Part shown: one piece after another, positions 28,949 to 36,234 of the stretch
How positions within the stretch are numbered: position 1 is the first letter of the stretch
Layout of the letters: the number at the start of each line of letters is the position of its first letter
Source: Aquipuribacter sp. SD81
Lineage (GTDB): Bacteria; Actinomycetota; Actinomycetes; Actinomycetales; JBBAYJ01
Assembly: GCF_037153975.1 (NCBI RefSeq)
Contig: NZ_JBBAYJ010000001.1
Span: forward strand, 124,001-188,000
DNA length: 64,000 nt
Direction of reading: 5' to 3'
Position numbers and translations under genes: made by a program
Notes under the pieces: model-generated
Told to the model about the DNA's origin: nothing
Databases searched by the model: none
What the model saw: the letters and a program-made list of their open reading frames with translations, nothing else

Positions 28949-30247
28949 TCAGCCGACCTCGCGCAGCTCCCACTCGACGCCGTCGGGGGTGTCGCGCACC
29001 TCGACGCCGAGCCCGGTGAGACCGTCGCGGACCGCGTCGCTCGTCGCGAAGTCCTTCGCGCCGCGCGCGCGGGCCCGCAGCTCAAGCAGCAGCCCGACGT
29101 AGCCCCCGACGACCTCGCGCGGGTCCCTGGCCCCGGTGCGGGCGAGGTCGCCGAGGCGCACGACCATCGCGCGCAGCACGCGGCGGGCGTGGTCCCGGTC
29201 GTCGCTCTGCAGGCTGTCGGTGAGCCAGTCCTGCATCGCCTGCTCGACCGCGAGCAGCGCGGCGACGGCGCCGTCGACGTCCGGGGCGGCCATCGCGGCG
29301 TCGAAGCGCTCGCGCTCGGCGTCGACCGCGGCCCGCAGCGACGTGGCCGCGGCGGGTGCGGCCGCGTCGTCGGGCTGGGCGGCGAGGTCGGCGTCCGCCG
29401 GTGACGGCGCGGCGGGGGCCGGGGGCGCGGCGCCGGGCTCGGCGGCACCGCGGCCGGCCAGGGCGTCGGCGAGCCAGCCGGTCTCCACGACCTGCCCGTC
29501 GGTGAGCACGACCTGTCGGTCCCGGTACCGCAGGGTCACCGTGCCGTTGCCCCGCACCGTCGCCGTGCCCGCCGGGAGGTCGAGGAGCAGCGCGGTGTGC
29601 TCGTCGACCCCGAGGACGCCGACGTCCTCGGGGAGCATCTCCTCCATCGCCTGCAGCCGCCGGGCGCCGAGGTAGCAGTACCGGGTGTCGTACGTGCCGC
29701 CCTCCGCGTTGTCGAAGTGGGGGACGAGCGCCGCGCGCACGCCGGTCGCCTCGCCGAGCACGTCGAGCCCGTCCGCCCAGTGCAGGTCGGCGCCCGCCTT
29801 GTAGATCTCGTACACCGGCACCGCGTGCGACCCGACGGTGCACGCGGCGGCGGACCCGACCACGAGAGTCCCCTCCCGGCGCACGACGTCGAGCATGGCG
29901 GCGGCCACGGCCGTGCCGCGCCACTGCCGCAGGGCGTAGGTCGGGCTGCCGGGCCCGGCGAACAGCCACCGCGCCTGCTCCAGCAGCGCGAGCGTCCGCT
30001 CCGCCTCGGCGCCCGTGCCCGCACGGCGCCACGGTGCGACGTCGACCCGCCGCCCGACCGCCTGCTCGAAGTACTGCAGGGTCTTCTGCACGAGCTCGTC
30101 GGCGTTGTCCTGGAACCCGAACGTCGTGTCGAGGACGAGCGCCGTGCCGGCGCCGCCCTGCTCGAAGGTGTCGGCGAGGACCGCCCGGTGGGTGCGGACC
30201 ATGGTGGGGGCGGTCTCGCCCGACCCCATGACGACGATGCGGCTCAC
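28949..30247 (-). CDS. Peptidase S51/cyanophycinase-like domain fused to a CysRS-like C-terminal domain
   Basis: The protein has 432 residues and two unlike halves. Residues 1-260 resemble peptidase S51 and cyanophycinase: [14 protein letters not shown] at the start, [12 protein letters not shown] (about 98-109), the nucleophile elbow [12 protein letters not shown] with S132, [15 protein letters not shown] with H177, and [14 protein letters not shown] Pro/Ala/Asp linker (about 262-300) follows. Residues 303-432 look like the DALR helical bundle and tail of cysteinyl-tRNA synthetase: a helical stretch, then [41 protein letters not shown]. No synthetase catalytic motif (HIGH or KMSKS) is present. 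The GTG has AGGAGG 8 nt upstream and overlaps the upstream stop. Function is unknown. Confidence 0.8.
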
Positions 30248-31152
30248 GCGGGTCCCTCCTGGGACGTCGGGGTGGGCGAGTGTCCCGCGGCGGTCAGCAC
30301 GTCGACGAGGTCGGACGCGAGGCGGTCGGGGTGCTGCAGGTGCAGGTCGTGGTGCGCGTCCGGGTAGGGCCGCAGCAGCGGCCGCGCGAGGCCCCCGACG
30401 GCCTCCTCGACGAGGGCGGACGCGGGGCCGCCGGCCGGGGCCAGGAGCACGGGCACCCCGATGCGGGGGTAGAGCCGGCGCGGGTCCTGCGCGTGCATCG
30501 AGCGGAGGATCCGCTCGTGCGCCGCGAGGGGGAGGATGTTGCGGACGTGGCCGGCCGGGTCGCCCGGCGGGTCGGTCGTGAGGTTGCCGAGGACCGCGGG
30601 CAGCGCGTGGGGGCCCCACGCCTGCACGGACGGGCGGATGCGCTCGACGAGCTCATCCCAGGTCGTCGTGCCCCACGACGGCGGCGCGAGCCGCTGCCAC
30701 AGCCGCTCGAACGGCTCGTCCTCGGGGAAGCGGAGCCACCCGCCGTCGACGAGCGCGAGTGCCGCGGGGCGGGCGCCGTCGGCGGCGCACTGCAGCACGA
30801 CGTTGCCACCCCACGACTGGCCGGCGAGGACGACCGGCAGCCCGGCGAGGTCCGGCTCGTCGCCGAGGGCGCGGAGCAGGGCGGCGACGTCGGCGGCCGC
30901 CACGGCGGTGTCCACGCCGACGGCGTCGGGCAGCGCCGCGCTCGCACCGTGCTCGCGCTGGTCCACCGCGACCGAGGCGACCCCTCGGGCGGCGAGGGCC
31001 TCGGCGCACGCGTCCCACATCCGCGCGTTGGACGCGAGGCCGTGCACGAGCACCGCGAGCGCCCACGGCCGTCCCGCCGGGACCGTCCGGCGGACCGCGA
31101 GCCGCACCCCGCGCCCCGGCAGGGCGACGACGTCGGCCGTCGCGGCGCTCAC
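30244..31152 (-). CDS. Alpha/beta hydrolase
   Basis: The protein has 302 residues. It has the oxyanion region [22 protein letters not shown], the nucleophile elbow [15 protein letters not shown], and a late catalytic His in [26 protein letters not shown] matches the DxRGHG-type strand. There is no signal peptide. It overlaps both neighbours by 4 nt, so it belongs to the five-gene operon that runs from 35341 down to 28949. The substrate is not evident. Confidence 0.82.
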
Positions 31153-32189
31153 CGGGTCTCCGGCGCGTCGGCGCCGGCCCCGCCGTGCACGCGCGCGAGC
31201 AGCGCGTCGACCGTGGTGGCGACGTCGACGCTGTCGGCCGCGGTCGGCAGCCAGACGTCGTCCCCGCGCACGGCCTTGGCGACGGCCTCGACCATGAGCC
31301 GGTACGGGTCGACGGGGGCGAAGTCCTCCGTGACCCGCACGGTCCCGTCCGGTCCGCGCAGGCTCAGCCTGCACGCGTCGTCCTTCGCTGTGAAGGCGGG
31401 TCGGTCGAGCACGAGCGTGCCGTCGTCACCGGTGACGGTGACGAGCTGCTCGTCCCGCCCGACGATGCCGCAGCGGACGACGGCCTCGGGACCGTCGGGA
31501 CGCTCGGCCGGCCGCAGGGTGCCGCGGGCGCGCACGTCCACCCCGTGCTCGACGTCACCCGTCGCGTCGAGGACCTCCAGCGGCCCGGCGCCCGTGGCCC
31601 ACCGGACCGCGTCGACGGAATAGCACCCGACGTCCAGCAGCGCCCCGCCGCCGCGCGCCCGCTCCAGCCGGTAGTTGCCCGCGAGCCGGTCCCCGCCGTC
31701 GAAGCTGAAGTCGGCCTCGACCCGGCGCACCGGCCCGAGCACCCCGTCGGCGAGGAGCGCGACGGCACGGCGGGTACGCGGGTGCCAGCGGTACCACCAC
31801 GCCTCGACGAGCAGCCGCCCGGAGGAGGCCGCCGCCTCGTGCATGCGGCGGGCCTCACCGGCGTCGAGCCCGAGCGGCTTCTCGCACAGCACGTGCTTGC
31901 CGGCCTCCAGCGCGGCGAGGGTCCATGGGAGGTGGGCGTCGTTGTTGAGCCCCACGTAGACGAGGTCGACGTCGGGGTCGGCGAGCAGCGCGGCGTAGGC
32001 GGCCGCGCCCGAGCCGTGGCCGCCGTAGGCCCGGCCGACGGGCCCGAGCGCGGCGGCGCGGGACTCGTCACGGGCGGCGACCGCTTGCAGGTGGGCCCCC
32101 TCGGCGGCGTGCGTCGCCGGTGCGAGTGCGCTGCGGGAGATGGTCCCCGCCCCGAGCAGGCCGACGCCCACGGAGCCGTCCGCCCTCAT
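31149..32189 (-). CDS. Gfo/Idh/MocA family oxidoreductase
   Basis: The protein has 346 residues. It has the N-terminal NAD(P)-binding domain (VGVGLLGAGTISRSALAPATHAA), the family EKP motif in HVLCEKPLGLDAGEARRM, and the dehydrogenase-like C-terminal domain beginning EAWWYRWHPRTRRAVALLADG, with LLDVGCYSVDAVRWATG carrying the likely catalytic-side residues. Family members oxidise or reduce sugars, inositols and related polyols. It overlaps the larger Gfo/Idh/MocA gene upstream (ATGA) and the hydrolase downstream (GTGA). Confidence 0.88.
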   Translation of the reverse strand: MRADGSVGVGLLGAGTISRSALAPATHAAEGAHLQAVAARDESRAAALGPVGRAYGGHGSGAAAYAALLADPDVDLVYVGLNNDAHLPWTLAALEAGKHVLCEKPLGLDAGEARRMHEAAASSGRLLVEAWWYRWHPRTRRAVALLADGVLGPVRRVEADFSFDGGDRLAGNYRLERARGGGALLDVGCYSVDAVRWATGAGPLEVLDATGDVEHGVDVRARGTLRPAERPDGPEAVVRCGIVGRDEQLVTVTGDDGTLVLDRPAFTAKDDACRLSLRGPDGTVRVTEDFAPVDPYRLMVEAVAKAVRGDDVWLPTAADSVDVATTVDALLARVHGGAGADAPETR

Positions 32190-33871
32190 CGCGGCACCAC
32201 CGGTCGGCCACCGTCGGCGGCCGAGGCCGACGCGGCCTCCATGACCGCGAGCACGCGGCGGCTCGTCGCGCCGGTGACGCTCATCGGCAGCCCGAGCAGG
32301 AGGTGGTCGGCGAGCTCACGGTGGAAGGGGTGGGGCGGCGCCGACGGCGTCGCGAGCCGGGTCACCGACCCGTCCGCGTCGTGCAGGTCGAGCACGGGCG
32401 GGGAGTCCGCCGGGGCGAGCACGTCCTCCTCGAGCGTCCCGACGGCGTTGCGGGACACGACCCGCTCCACCCGCCAGCTGCCGACGAGCGCGCCCGCGGT
32501 GCCGAGCACGTACCAGCGCGGCTTGAGGGCGGCCGCGAGGTCGGAGTGCGTGAACTCCGCCTCGGCGCCGTCGGCGAAGTGCACGAGCACCCGGGAGTGG
32601 TCGGCGTTGGTGACGTCGAACCAGCGGCGCTTGTGCGTCGTCGCGCTCACGTGCGCGACGGGAGCCGGGAACAGGTCGAGCAGCTGGTCGATGACGTGGG
32701 CGCCCCAGTCGTAGAAGGCGCCGCCGGAGGCGTCGACGTCGGAGTGCCACAGGTTGCACGGGTGCCCGAAACCGCCGACGAACGCCTCGACGTGGAACAC
32801 CTCGCCGAGGCGACCCGAGCGCACCGCCCGCGCCACGGCCAGGTAGTCGGGGTCCCAGCGCCGGTTCTGGTAGACGACGGCGAGCACACCCGCCTCGTCG
32901 GCGGCCGCGAGCACGGCGTCGGCCTCCTCGGTGCGGATGGCGAACGGCTTCTCCACGACGACGTGCTTGCCCGCGCGCACCGCCCGCAGGGCCCACTCCG
33001 CGTGCGTGTCCGGTGGGGTCGACACGACGACGAGGTCGACGTCCGGGTCCTCGACGGCGGCCGCCGCGTCGGTGGTCGTGCGCAGTCCCGGCGACACCTC
33101 CCGGGCGGCGGCGAGGCGCTCGGGGTTGCGGTCGCACACGAGCTCCAGGCCGAGGCCCGTCACCTCGCGGAACGCGGCGGCGTGCTCGTGGCCGATGGCG
33201 CCGTAGCCGAGCAGCGCCGCGCGCACGGGGGTCCGCGGCGCGCTCGCCGGGCGCCCGGTCGCCGCGACGAGCTCGTGCAGCGCGAGCAGCAGCAGCCGCC
33301 GTGCCGTCGGCGAGGCGACCCCGGTGGGGGTGCCGCCGAGCAGCCACGCGAGCACGGGGCCGCGCCGCGAGGCGACCGGGTGCACCGCGAGCCCGACGGC
33401 GGCCGTGAGCAGCACCGCGACGTCGTCGTCGACCTGCTCGACCCGCAGCACCCGGTCGTGGACGTGCACGTGCTCGCCGAGGTGCGCGCCCGTGCCGTGC
33501 CGGTGGTCGACGAGCCGCGCGGCCATGCCGCCCGCGTCCCGGCCGGCGCGGACCCGCACGTCGTGGGCGGGGGTGACCGGCCCGGTGACGAGACCGGTGT
33601 GCCCGGTCCAGGCCCCGTCGGGGTCGGCGGCGAGCGTCGGGCCGGCGAGGACGACCGGGACGCCGAGCCTCGCGAGCCGGTCCACGAGGGCGGGCCCGGG
33701 TGGGGTGTCGCGCCACACGAGGACCGCGTGCGCGTCGCGCGCGCCGGGCGCCTCCTCCACGCCGGCCCCGCGCAGGCCGAGCCGCAGGTCCGCGACCGCG
33801 TCGGCCAGGTGCGCGTCGGACAGGTCGACGAGCCAGTGCAGGCAGAGCCTGACGCCGGGGCCTCTGCTCAC
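32186..33871 (-). CDS. Gfo/Idh/MocA oxidoreductase with ThuA-like N-terminal domain
   Basis: The protein has 561 residues, far longer than a normal member. Residues about 216-561 are a complete Gfo/Idh/MocA enzyme (VRAALLGYGAIGHEHAAAF, HVVVEKPFAIRTEEADAVL, GGAFYDWGAHVIDQLLDLFP). The first 210 residues form a separate alpha/beta domain (RLCLHWLVDLSD, AHAVLVWRDTPPG, GVPVVLAGPTL, VEQVDDDVAVLLTAAVGL, VLAWLLGGTPTG, TARRLLLLALHEL). Its layout suggests a glutamine-amidotransferase-like or ThuA-like fold. The ThuA assignment is inference; ThuA and the Gfo/Idh/MocA enzyme ThuB work together in trehalose oxidation in rhizobia. It is second in the operon, 9 bp after the FAD enzyme. Confidence 0.78.
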   Translation of the reverse strand: MSRGPGVRLCLHWLVDLSDAHLADAVADLRLGLRGAGVEEAPGARDAHAVLVWRDTPPGPALVDRLARLGVPVVLAGPTLAADPDGAWTGHTGLVTGPVTPAHDVRVRAGRDAGGMAARLVDHRHGTGAHLGEHVHVHDRVLRVEQVDDDVAVLLTAAVGLAVHPVASRRGPVLAWLLGGTPTGVASPTARRLLLLALHELVAATGRPASAPRTPVRAALLGYGAIGHEHAAAFREVTGLGLELVCDRNPERLAAAREVSPGLRTTTDAAAAVEDPDVDLVVVSTPPDTHAEWALRAVRAGKHVVVEKPFAIRTEEADAVLAAADEAGVLAVVYQNRRWDPDYLAVARAVRSGRLGEVFHVEAFVGGFGHPCNLWHSDVDASGGAFYDWGAHVIDQLLDLFPAPVAHVSATTHKRRWFDVTNADHSRVLVHFADGAEAEFTHSDLAAALKPRWYVLGTAGALVGSWRVERVVSRNAVGTLEEDVLAPADSPPVLDLHDADGSVTRLATPSAPPHPFHRELADHLLLGLPMSVTGATSRRVLAVMEAASASAADGGRPVVPR

Positions 33872-33880
33872 GCCCGAACG

Positions 33881-35341
33881 CTACGACGGGTCGTGGGCGA
33901 GCCGCTCGGCGAGCGTCGCCGTCGGGTCGTTGAGCGCCTCCGACCAGGTCGGGAAGGCCCGGATGTGCCGCGCGAGGAAGCGGACGTCGAGCCGGGCGGC
34001 CACCGCGAGCGCGAGCTCGGCGCCCCACGAGTCCGCCTGCGGGCCGACCGCCGCGGCGCCGAGGAGGCGGCCGTCGGCGCGGTCGACGACGAGCCGGACG
34101 TGCCCGGGGGTCGAGGGCCCGTCCTGCCCGTCCTGCCCGTCGTCGGCACCGAGGTCCTCCAGGTACCAGCGCGCGGTGTCGTCGAGGTCCTGCCCCGCGG
34201 CCTCCGTGCGGTGCCCGGCCTCGCGGGCCGCGGCCTCGCCGAGACCGACGGAGAACACCGGCGGGTCCGTGTAGACGACGCGGGGGGCGTCGTCGTCGTG
34301 GCGGCGGGCGTCCCCGCCGTGGAGGCGGTCGAGGACGACGCGCGCGTGGGCGTTGGCGGTGTGCGTGTAGGCGGGCCCGCCCGTCACGTCCCCGACGGCG
34401 AACACCCCGTCGACGGCCTCGTCCAAGGCGTCGACCGCACGGCAGGCGTCGTCGACCCGGACCGCCCCGTCGTCGACGGCCACGCCGAGCACGTCGAGCC
34501 CCAGGTCGTCGCCGTTGGGACGTCGGCCCGTCACGACGAGGACGCGGTCGACGTCGACGGTCTGCTCGGCGCCGTCGTCGCGGCCGTCGTCGTCGGCGGG
34601 AGCGAGGTGCGCCCGCGCGCCGCCGTCGGATGCTTCGACCCGCTCCAGGGTCGTGCCCGCGCGGACGTCGACGCCGGTGCGGGTCAGGTGCGCCGCCACG
34701 GCCTCGCCGACCCAGCCGTCCTCGCCGGGCAGCAGCGTCGGGGCCGTCTCCACGAGGGTCACCCGCACCCCGAAGGACGCGTACACCTGCGAGAGCTCGC
34801 AGCCGACCGCGCCGCCGCCGAGCACGAGCAGCCGCTCGGGCAGCTCCGCGCTCGACAGCGCGTCGTCCGAGGTCCACGTCGGGACGGAGTCGAGCCCGTC
34901 GACGGGCGGGACGACGGGGGAGGAGCCGGTGCCGACCACGAGCGCGCGGTCCCACGACACCCGCTGCGTCCCGTCCTCGCCGGTCACCTCGACCTCGCCG
35001 GGGGCGACGACGCGGCCGCGGCCGCGCAGCAGCACGACGCCGGCCTCGGCGAGGCCCTTGGCGTGCTCGGCGTCGTCGCGGTGCTCGGCGGCCTCGTCGC
35101 GCGCGGCGACCGCGTCGCGCCACGCGGCGCGCAGGCCGTCGCGGTCCAGGCCCGCCCGGCGCGCCCGCGAGGCCCGCAGCAGCAGCGCCTTGCTCGGCAC
35201 GCACGCGAGGAACGGGCACTCACCGCCCACCAGGCCGGCCTCGACGACCGCGACGGACAGGCCCGCACGGGCCGCCTCGCTCGCCAGCGTCTCCCCGCCG
35301 GACCCGGCCCCGATCACGACGAGGTCGTAGGTGTCGCTCAT
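33881..35341 (-). CDS. FAD-dependent pyridine nucleotide-disulfide oxidoreductase
   Basis: The protein has 486 residues and is related to dihydrolipoamide dehydrogenase, mycothione reductase and mercuric reductase. It has the FAD motif LVVIGAGSGGETLASEAARAG, the redox-active disulfide CX4C in GGECPFLACVPSKALL, the NAD(P) motif LLVLGGGAVGCELSQVYASFGVRVTLVE, the FAD-contacting VDGVFAVGDVTGG, and an interface domain with PPVFSVGLGEA. The usual C-terminal HAHPT is not obvious; the tail reads RAFPTWSEALNDP, which lacks the catalytic His-Glu pair of classic disulfide reductases. The substrate is therefore uncertain. It heads the operon. Confidence 0.85.
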   Translation of the reverse strand: MSDTYDLVVIGAGSGGETLASEAARAGLSVAVVEAGLVGGECPFLACVPSKALLLRASRARRAGLDRDGLRAAWRDAVAARDEAAEHRDDAEHAKGLAEAGVVLLRGRGRVVAPGEVEVTGEDGTQRVSWDRALVVGTGSSPVVPPVDGLDSVPTWTSDDALSSAELPERLLVLGGGAVGCELSQVYASFGVRVTLVETAPTLLPGEDGWVGEAVAAHLTRTGVDVRAGTTLERVEASDGGARAHLAPADDDGRDDGAEQTVDVDRVLVVTGRRPNGDDLGLDVLGVAVDDGAVRVDDACRAVDALDEAVDGVFAVGDVTGGPAYTHTANAHARVVLDRLHGGDARRHDDDAPRVVYTDPPVFSVGLGEAAAREAGHRTEAAGQDLDDTARWYLEDLGADDGQDGQDGPSTPGHVRLVVDRADGRLLGAAAVGPQADSWGAELALAVAARLDVRFLARHIRAFPTWSEALNDPTATLAERLAHDPS

Positions 35342-35688
35342 GCTCCGCAGCCTGCCTGCCGGGTGCTGGTCCGGCGACCCGGGCGGCGGGCGAGGCTGGT
35401 CCGCGGCGGTGGCTCGCGAGCCGTGACTCCCCGGGCGGCGCAGACCAGACGGAAAGCCATCGGGCTGCTCTTCGACGACCAGGAGCCGGAGCTGGCCCGT
35501 GCGACCGGCGTCGCCTTCGATCTCTTCATGCCATAGCGACGACCTGCCACCGCCCCACTCGCGCGCGGGCGTAACCGATCGACGATCCTCAGTGGACACA
35601 CCGACGAGGGCCCCGGCACGGCTCGGCCGCGCAGCCGGCTTGCGCCTCCCGAGAGTGAGTTCAGGCAGGGCGTTAACGTCAGTTCGCG
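35342..35688. other. Intergenic, no supported gene
   Basis: This 347-bp stretch separates divergent genes. A short plus-strand frame ending at 35536 (AIGLLFDDQEPELARATGV...) looks protein-like for about 30 residues but has no start, ribosome site or match I recognise, so it may be a gene remnant. The base composition is less GC-extreme than upstream. Confidence 0.4.
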
Positions 35689-36234
35689 ATGGCAACGCTA
35701 TGGCAGCCGCCGACTCTGGCGCTGGCGATCGTGCTCAGTGCGGCCACCGCGATCGGTGTCGTGGTCACGATCGTCTCGTTCAGCCTCGCCGACGACCTCA
35801 GGAACACGGGCACAACCGCCACGGCGACTGCCACCTCCGACACGCGCAGTGGTGGGAGGGCGAGCCTGTCTCGCGTTGACGTGCGCTTCACGACGCAGGA
35901 CGGTGAAGTCGTCGACACGACGCTGGAGGAGCCGAGCGAGAACCTGCAGCTGGGCGACGAGATCGAGGTCGTGTACGACCCTGAGGATCCATGGGAGGCA
36001 ACCGCTCTGGGTGACGAGGCCCGCACCGCCTGGATCGTCGCTCTCGTCACGGCAGTCTTCGCAATCGGCTCGGTCTGGGAGTGGGCACGCTGGGCCAACC
36101 GACGCTGGGCGGACACGAGCCTTCGAGGAGTAGGGCGGCAAGCCCCCCAGGCGATGTCGGCGGCCGAGATAGCCGCGAAGAAGAAGCGAGCGCTCCGGCG
36201 CAGGCGCAAGAAGCGCAACCGGCGCGGCCGTTGA
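35689..36234 (+). CDS. DUF3592-like two-helix membrane protein
   Basis: The protein has 181 residues. One membrane helix lies near the N-terminus (ALAIVLSAATAIGVVVTIVSFSLA, about 11-34) and a second at about 113-132 (AWIVALVTAVFAIGSVWEWA). Between them is an extracytoplasmic beta-rich domain (VDVRFTTQDGEVVDTTLEEPSENLQLGDEIEVVYDPEDPWEA) of the type found in DUF3592 proteins. The C-terminus is a strongly basic cytoplasmic tail (KKKRALRRRRKKRNRRGR). Function is unknown. Codon use is a little less GC-biased than the core genes. Confidence 0.65.
   Translation: MATLWQPPTLALAIVLSAATAIGVVVTIVSFSLADDLRNTGTTATATATSDTRSGGRASLSRVDVRFTTQDGEVVDTTLEEPSENLQLGDEIEVVYDPEDPWEATALGDEARTAWIVALVTAVFAIGSVWEWARWANRRWADTSLRGVGRQAPQAMSAAEIAAKKKRALRRRRKKRNRRGR

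Follow-up and report, generated by a model that had tools for sequence, protein, structure and literature searches.

A gene in the window (the whole stretch of 64,000 nucleotides that was analysed) encodes a genuine single protein that joins a hydrolase domain, modelled with the peptidase-S51 fold, to the helical bundle and anticodon-binding domain of cysteinyl-tRNA synthetase (CysRS). The fusion is a widespread family and not a one-off. We tentatively propose that it is a serine hydrolase guided to a tRNA with G34, most likely tRNA-Cys, from which it would remove an acyl or acyl-like group in trans. The gene and its parts are listed below, with residue conservation counted in 106 relatives.

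28949..30247, minus strand: S51-CysS_C fusion gene, 432 aa, GTG start at 30247
30254..30260, minus strand: strong Shine-Dalgarno sequence AGGAGGG, 6 bases 5' of the fusion GTG
29462..30247, minus strand: peptidase-S51-like catalytic domain, residues 1-262 (6nqc profile match and VIA-align)
29852..29854, minus strand: S132, predicted nucleophile (SAAA motif), invariant 106/106, aligned with the SAGA serine of 6nqc
29717..29719, minus strand: H177, predicted catalytic histidine (PH[FYW][DN]N), invariant 106/106, aligned with the PHF histidine of 6nqc
29600..29605, minus strand: D215-E216, candidate acidic triad residue (GVDEHT), D215 106/106 and E216 105/106, 'GIDE.TA' in 6nqc
29342..29461, minus strand: variable flexible linker, residues 263-302, poorly conserved
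29132..29341, minus strand: helical bundle, counterpart of the CysRS bundle, residues 303-372 (8qhp profile match, 1u0b alignment)
28964..29101, minus strand: CysRS anticodon-binding domain (CysS_C), residues 383-428 (Pfam PF23493, 3sp1 structural alignment)
29036..29077, minus strand: R391, R395, F400 and D404, counterparts by alignment of the G34-contacting R423, R427, W432 and D436 of E. coli CysRS (PMC12684709)

In the window sequence the frame runs from a GTG at 30247-30245 to a stop at 28951-28949 and holds no internal stops. Its start overlaps the stop of the upstream gene by four bases (GTGA, 30244-30247). About 20 bases separate the stop of the fusion from the end of a plus-strand exonuclease III gene. 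A two-gene or frameshift artefact was ruled out, as about 100 complete relatives encoded in other genomes show the same architecture in a single frame. An AlphaFold2 model built on the 106 relatives had a mean pLDDT of 90.6 (73 in a shallow version). The linker, disordered as had been anticipated, scored about 50–64 over residues 271-300, and because it is flexible the model gives no prediction for the relative placement of the two halves.

The N-terminal part of a profile made from eight relatives matched 6nqc, a 'cyanophycinase-like exopeptidase', at E 1.8e-6. Structural alignment of the N-terminal model with VIA-align gave Z 25.2 for 6nqc (rmsd 2.8, 233 residues), followed by pseudo-CphB (Z 24.5) and cyanophycinase 3en0 (Z 23.5), both over about 233 residues, and by aspartyl dipeptidase 1fy2 (Z 19.5). 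According to the model, residues 1-262 are a peptidase-S51 fold. Pfam PF03575 was matched at E ≤0.01 by 30 of the 106 members and not by the window protein, for which CysS_C was the sole Pfam family found. The top structural matches were S51 enzymes, a list without any of the editing-domain folds (INS, DTD, AlaRS-type, CP1) that leaves room for one.

S51 enzymes are known to use a Ser-His-Glu or a Ser-His-Asp triad (PMC9239234, PMC11078827), and such a triad is present in the fusion as judged by conservation and alignment. The S51-like half with S132 and H177 foreseen in the original prediction was thereby confirmed at the level of fold and of invariant residues, and an active hydrolase is supported by the same residues. 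The S51 motif GXSAG is absent from the family, in which (V/F)-x-S-A-A-A takes its place, with SAAA invariant in all 106 sequences. About 30 residues of the domain are invariant in this set, among them the family-specific E11, H20, Q46, N48, Y146, E147, Y149, K150, N180, C191 and R197. These residues, together with SAAA in place of GXSAG, suggest that the fusion acts on one specific substrate class and does not carry out the generic peptidase E reaction. On the same grounds, cleavage of Asp dipeptides or cyanophycin, named in the original prediction as what S51 enzymes do, should not be assumed.

The same observations bear on another explanation, in which the S51 domain hydrolyses small peptides in the ordinary way and the anticodon domain is a sensor or tether: tRNA binding would switch the enzyme or bring it to the translation machinery, and the tRNA would not be its substrate. 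The characterised S51 members are indeed peptidases acting on Asp-containing peptides (PMC11078827, PMC9239234), the linker between the halves is variable and flexible, and a second hydrolase gene stands in the operon. The conservation of the S51 domain is, however, stricter than expected for a generic peptidase and GXSAG has been lost; we consider this explanation unlikely.

Within the same fold, the peptidase MccG cuts a toxic isoaspartyl-nucleotide; its homologues are mostly standalone (PMC9239234). It provides a precedent for S51 chemistry on aminoacyl-nucleotide substrates. It also raises the idea that the fusion detoxifies aminoacyl-nucleotide-like synthetase inhibitors, as MccG does for processed microcin C, with the tail placing it near CysRS or its tRNA. 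A patchy distribution would suit such a function, but the domain that was retained reads an anticodon and not an adenylate, the neighbourhoods examined showed no recognisable antibiotic gene cluster, and no known CysRS-directed compound of the MccG-substrate type was found. Detoxification is thus held to be decidedly improbable.

The C-terminal half was recognised by several comparisons. Pfam CysS_C (PF23493) scored 25.7 bits on the window protein against a cut-off of 23 and matched 91 of the 106 members at E ≤0.01. CysRS chains were also matched by a profile of the C-terminal domain (E 5.6e-10 to 1.5e-6); one of them, 8qhp (E 1.5e-6), is matched over the tail and back through the helical bundle. 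With Foldseek, the CysRS-tRNA complex 1u0b came next after the S51 matches (E 2.8e-3). Structural alignment with 1u0b covers residues 305-429, and VIA-align superimposed residues 375-429 on the CysRS C-terminal domain 3sp1 with a modest Z of 8.1 (rmsd 2.0, 51 residues). Although this Z is modest, profiles, Pfam and residue identity agree that the tail is the bundle and anticodon domain of CysRS. The fusion has no class I synthetase core: its C-terminal part alone matches CysRS, the NCBIfam CysRS models scoring 18–24 bits against cut-offs of 340 and 780, and a separate CysRS is encoded in the source genome. A CysRS-like bundle and tail lacking the core had been predicted from the start. The frame is one gene and not two, and Foldseek and VIA-align place its halves with S51 enzymes and with CysRS, the points on which the original prediction had staked itself.

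In the complex of E. coli CysRS with tRNA-Cys, as described in PMC12684709 citing Hauenstein et al. 2004, G34 is hydrogen-bonded by Arg427 and Asp436, Trp432 stacks, and Arg423 contacts G34 with Asp436 through water. At the aligned positions of the fusion, R391, R395 and D404 are kept in 106/106 relatives, each of which has an aromatic residue (F, Y or W) at position 400; R407, D419 and W426 are kept as well. Counted this way, these seven (391, 395, 400, 404, 407, 419, 426) are the invariant columns out of the 46 between 383 and 428, and all four G34 positions are included. Four columns chosen at random would all fall within the seven with a probability of 35/163185, about 2e-4, a figure that tests the concentration of constraint and not function, the seven columns having been picked after viewing the alignment. 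A set of 23 CysRS from the same order shares these positions with two exceptions, a K in place of R395 and a Y in place of W426, each seen once. Four divergent copies from Streptomycetaceae and Nonomuraea, read by eye, also retain the G34-contact residues. In four divergent members (L049-L052) the bundle is missing or shortened and the anticodon domain is still intact.

Since the G34-contact positions are invariant while most of the domain varies, the alignment supports a retained anticodon reader in the fusion tail rather than a decayed one, and the predicted binding of tRNA is well supported. A tail without RNA binding might instead serve as a protein-interaction or dimerisation module, a kind of reuse that is possible for small domains. 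In a tail that no longer bound RNA, one would expect the G34-contact residues to have drifted. Their invariance across 106 diverse sequences, in which most other columns of the domain vary, makes such a module distinctly improbable.

Two positions set the family apart from CysRS. E416 and R418 (window 28994-29002; positions 448 and 450 in E. coli CysRS) are near-fixed in the fusions and point to a possible retuning of anticodon reading: position 416 is E in 91/106 fusions and mostly a small or hydrophobic residue in CysRS, and position 418 is R in 88/106 fusions versus E in 18 of the 23 CysRS. As both adjoin the conserved D419, recognition of bases 35–36 may have shifted, and the reading of C35 and A36 may differ from that of CysRS. 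The domain could accordingly have been retuned to another G34 tRNA (e.g. Asp, Asn, Tyr, His or Phe), with G34 readers kept, C35/A36 readers changed and the enzyme editing that tRNA. The invariant G34 readers and the replacement of CysRS residues by E416 and R418 in most members would fit, as would the preference of known S51 enzymes for aspartyl substrates (PMC11078827). All other hallmark CysS_C residues are kept, however, and a change of tRNA is regarded as quite unlikely.

The distribution of the fusion was determined in two ways. A set of 296 Actinomycetota genomes was searched with the N-terminal domain alone, so that tails were not selected for. Of 22 complete strong matches, 22 carried the CysRS-like tail; one further match was cut by a contig end. 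The search for this architecture across Actinomycetota, suggested along with the prediction, was thus answered in its favour. A scan of named genomes yielded at least 588 confirmed relatives. Both domains lay in one frame in 80/80 of the loci kept (the best 80 of the at least 588, one of which is truncated at a contig end), which were chosen by match quality and are therefore not an unbiased sample. Among the matches listed, carriers include Kineosporia, Micromonospora, Phytohabitans, Pseudonocardia, Dactylosporangium, Acidimicrobiia and Nanopelagicales. Some records with the fusion are titled Dormiibacterota or Chloroflexi, the 296-genome survey having covered Actinomycetota only. Where members in these sets carry an annotation, it reads hypothetical protein.

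No close relative of this S51 type lacking the tail was found in the genomes and records searched. Records of Streptomycetaceae and Nonomuraea, including plasmids, at first suggested an unfused S51 domain; this was ruled out, as they encode a tail that is divergent but keeps the key residues. On the Streptomycetaceae plasmids (L148, L149, L151), genes for a NicO-like nickel transporter, a TPR protein, DUF4331 and a class F sortase were seen near the fusion. The phages searched contained no match, and a phage origin was set aside; a role in anti-phage defence was set aside likewise, there being no PADLOC match. An essential role in proofreading is made less likely by the patchy distribution.

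Upstream of the fusion on the same strand, the window contains three further genes of the operon.

30244..31152, minus strand: alpha/beta hydrolase, conserved partner in the operon with its own nucleophile S114 and histidine H269, GTG start probably at 31152, Pfam Abhydrolase_6 1.4e-15
31149..32189, minus strand: Gfo/Idh/MocA oxidoreductase (short), extended operon, in a minority of loci
32186..33871, minus strand: Gfo/Idh/MocA oxidoreductase with an N-terminal extension of about 210 aa, extended operon

The alpha/beta hydrolase was found directly upstream of the fusion in 50 of the 71 loci with enough upstream DNA, usually overlapping it or within a few bases. Members of this hydrolase subfamily scoring better than E 1e-80 occurred in 13 of the 296 genomes, and 13/13 of these carry the fusion, with the two genes non-adjacent in five. 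These counts depend on a cut-off set after viewing the scores (the next matches, E 4e-73 and weaker, lie in genomes without the fusion), on a query built from operon members and on related genomes that are not independent. Two Gfo/Idh/MocA genes 5' of the hydrolase were present in the window and in seven of the 50 loci with enough upstream DNA. The extension of about 210 aa gave no Pfam match and is conserved in eight loci (L077, L087, L091, L101, L108, L109, L120, L121). Further upstream, at 33881-35695 (minus strand), the window encodes a pyridine nucleotide-disulphide oxidoreductase resembling lipoamide dehydrogenase, MerA and mycothione reductase; it was not seen upstream of the relatives' loci.

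No tRNA-Cys gene was found near any scanned fusion locus, and an association with such genes was rejected. The recurrent neighbour is tRNA-Glu (UUC), located directly 3' of the fusion on the same strand, about 15–210 bases away, in 11 loci (L039, L050, L088, L101, L116, L117, L119, L122, L124, L130, L132). This linkage includes deep branches of the family tree and may be ancestral. In L033 a tRNA-Lys takes its place. In about 12 loci, mostly from Acidimicrobiia, an operon for a ZnuABC-type metal ABC transporter, named by eye, lies convergent and just downstream of the fusion (L081, L095, L097, L100, L104, L105, L106, L108, L111, L115, L127, L128). CysRS is zinc-dependent; the arrangement may be chance synteny.

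Three roles had originally been suggested for the tail: recruitment to tRNA-Cys, to cysteine-ligating partners such as MshC in the mycothiol pathway, or to a shared ligand. Recruitment to tRNA-Cys is the best supported by the invariant G34 positions. The link with MshC and mycothiol was rejected. The source genome has an ordinary MshC (G000:C3:111508), and a CysS_C search of that genome found only the fusion and CysRS above the cut-off, not MshC; the NCBIfam MshC model gave no match to the fusion protein. Fusion-bearing genomes often hold a second CysRS/MshC-like match, but many MshC-bearing genomes have no fusion, and the co-occurrence is therefore read as shared ancestry. A short MshC-like CysRS paralogue, which could represent a divergent clade of MshC or a different ligase, occurs in about 45 genomes from classes other than that of the window (e.g. 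G189, G289, G335, G283); it scores about 340–446 bits, under the NCBIfam cut-off of 485.

In the mechanism we favour, the CysRS-derived bundle and anticodon-binding domain would hold a tRNA with G34, most likely tRNA-Cys (GCA), and the S51-fold domain on its flexible linker would hydrolyse an ester or amide on the tRNA or its cargo through S132, H177 and D215 or E216. The enzyme would most probably serve in trans-editing or repair, clearing tRNA-Cys of an incorrect or damaged aminoacyl or acyl-like group, with the co-encoded alpha/beta hydrolase presumably in the same pathway. The tRNA-guided reading is supported by the invariant G34 positions, by the retention of R407, D419 and W426, by the fusion of both halves in 22/22 and 80/80 cases, by the members that keep the anticodon domain with a short or missing bundle, by the S51 fold with its invariant Ser and His and near-invariant acidic residue, and by the precedents of ThrRS-ed and MccG. 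The differences at E416 and R418, the lack of a nearby tRNA-Cys gene and the patchy distribution count against this mechanism. Trans-editing, or action at the tRNA 3' end, is suggested by analogy only. Nothing known connects the catalytic fold with translation, and we know of no S51 enzyme acting on tRNA. The general view is that CysRS can do without an editing domain because zinc selects cysteine. Taken as a whole, a new bacterial system for tRNA-Cys quality control or repair, in which an S51-fold serine hydrolase with a captured CysRS domain reads GCA and removes wrong or damaged groups alongside a dedicated alpha/beta hydrolase, is a somewhat doubtful reading. If true, many Actinomycetota police, repair or use tRNA-Cys despite the zinc-based selectivity of CysRS, and S51 enzymes extend from peptides and nucleotides to tRNA. 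A family of hypothetical proteins is thereby open to direct biochemical test.

No description of the fusion was found in the open-licence literature searched, an absence that is not proof. A review of synthetase paralogues names as CysRS derivatives CysRS*, without the anticodon domain, and MshC, and no anticodon domain on a hydrolase. The combination, called unexpected in the original prediction, is so with respect to this literature, and is no oddity given the at least 588 relatives. A hydrolase with a captured synthetase tRNA-binding domain is a known type, and in the literature searched the S51 catalytic fold is undescribed in that role.

Compared with known systems, the fusion shares the fold of peptidase family S51 (peptidase E, cyanophycinase CphB and MccG; Z 16–25), the Ser-His pair with an acidic residue, and the GSGE-like start and GxDExTA end motifs, the nearest solved structure being 6nqc from an acI-B1 actinobacterium. 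It differs in having SAAA for SAG, the family-specific invariant segments YEIYK, DNxEGG and CYLG, and the fused anticodon domain. Its tail resembles the C-terminal region of CysRS (E. coli CysRS 332-461) in the bundle, the anticodon-binding domain and the G34-contact residues, but the fusion is without the catalytic core, has E416 and R418 unlike most CysRS, and has a bundle that is short or lost in some members. MshC is likewise a CysRS relative of Actinomycetota, yet it keeps the synthetase core, the opposite half of CysRS. A parallel in design is archaeal ThrRS-ed, which pairs an editing domain with an anticodon-binding domain, a type of domain on which several editing domains depend (PMC11295145). 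Both proteins combine a hydrolase domain with the anticodon-binding domain of a synthetase and lack the aminoacylation core, and the fusion thus has, in architecture alone, the make-up of a trans-editing factor, a hydrolase with a tRNA-recognition domain. The fusion differs from ThrRS-ed in its hydrolase fold, in its synthetase parent and in being bacterial, and its editing activity is a prediction.
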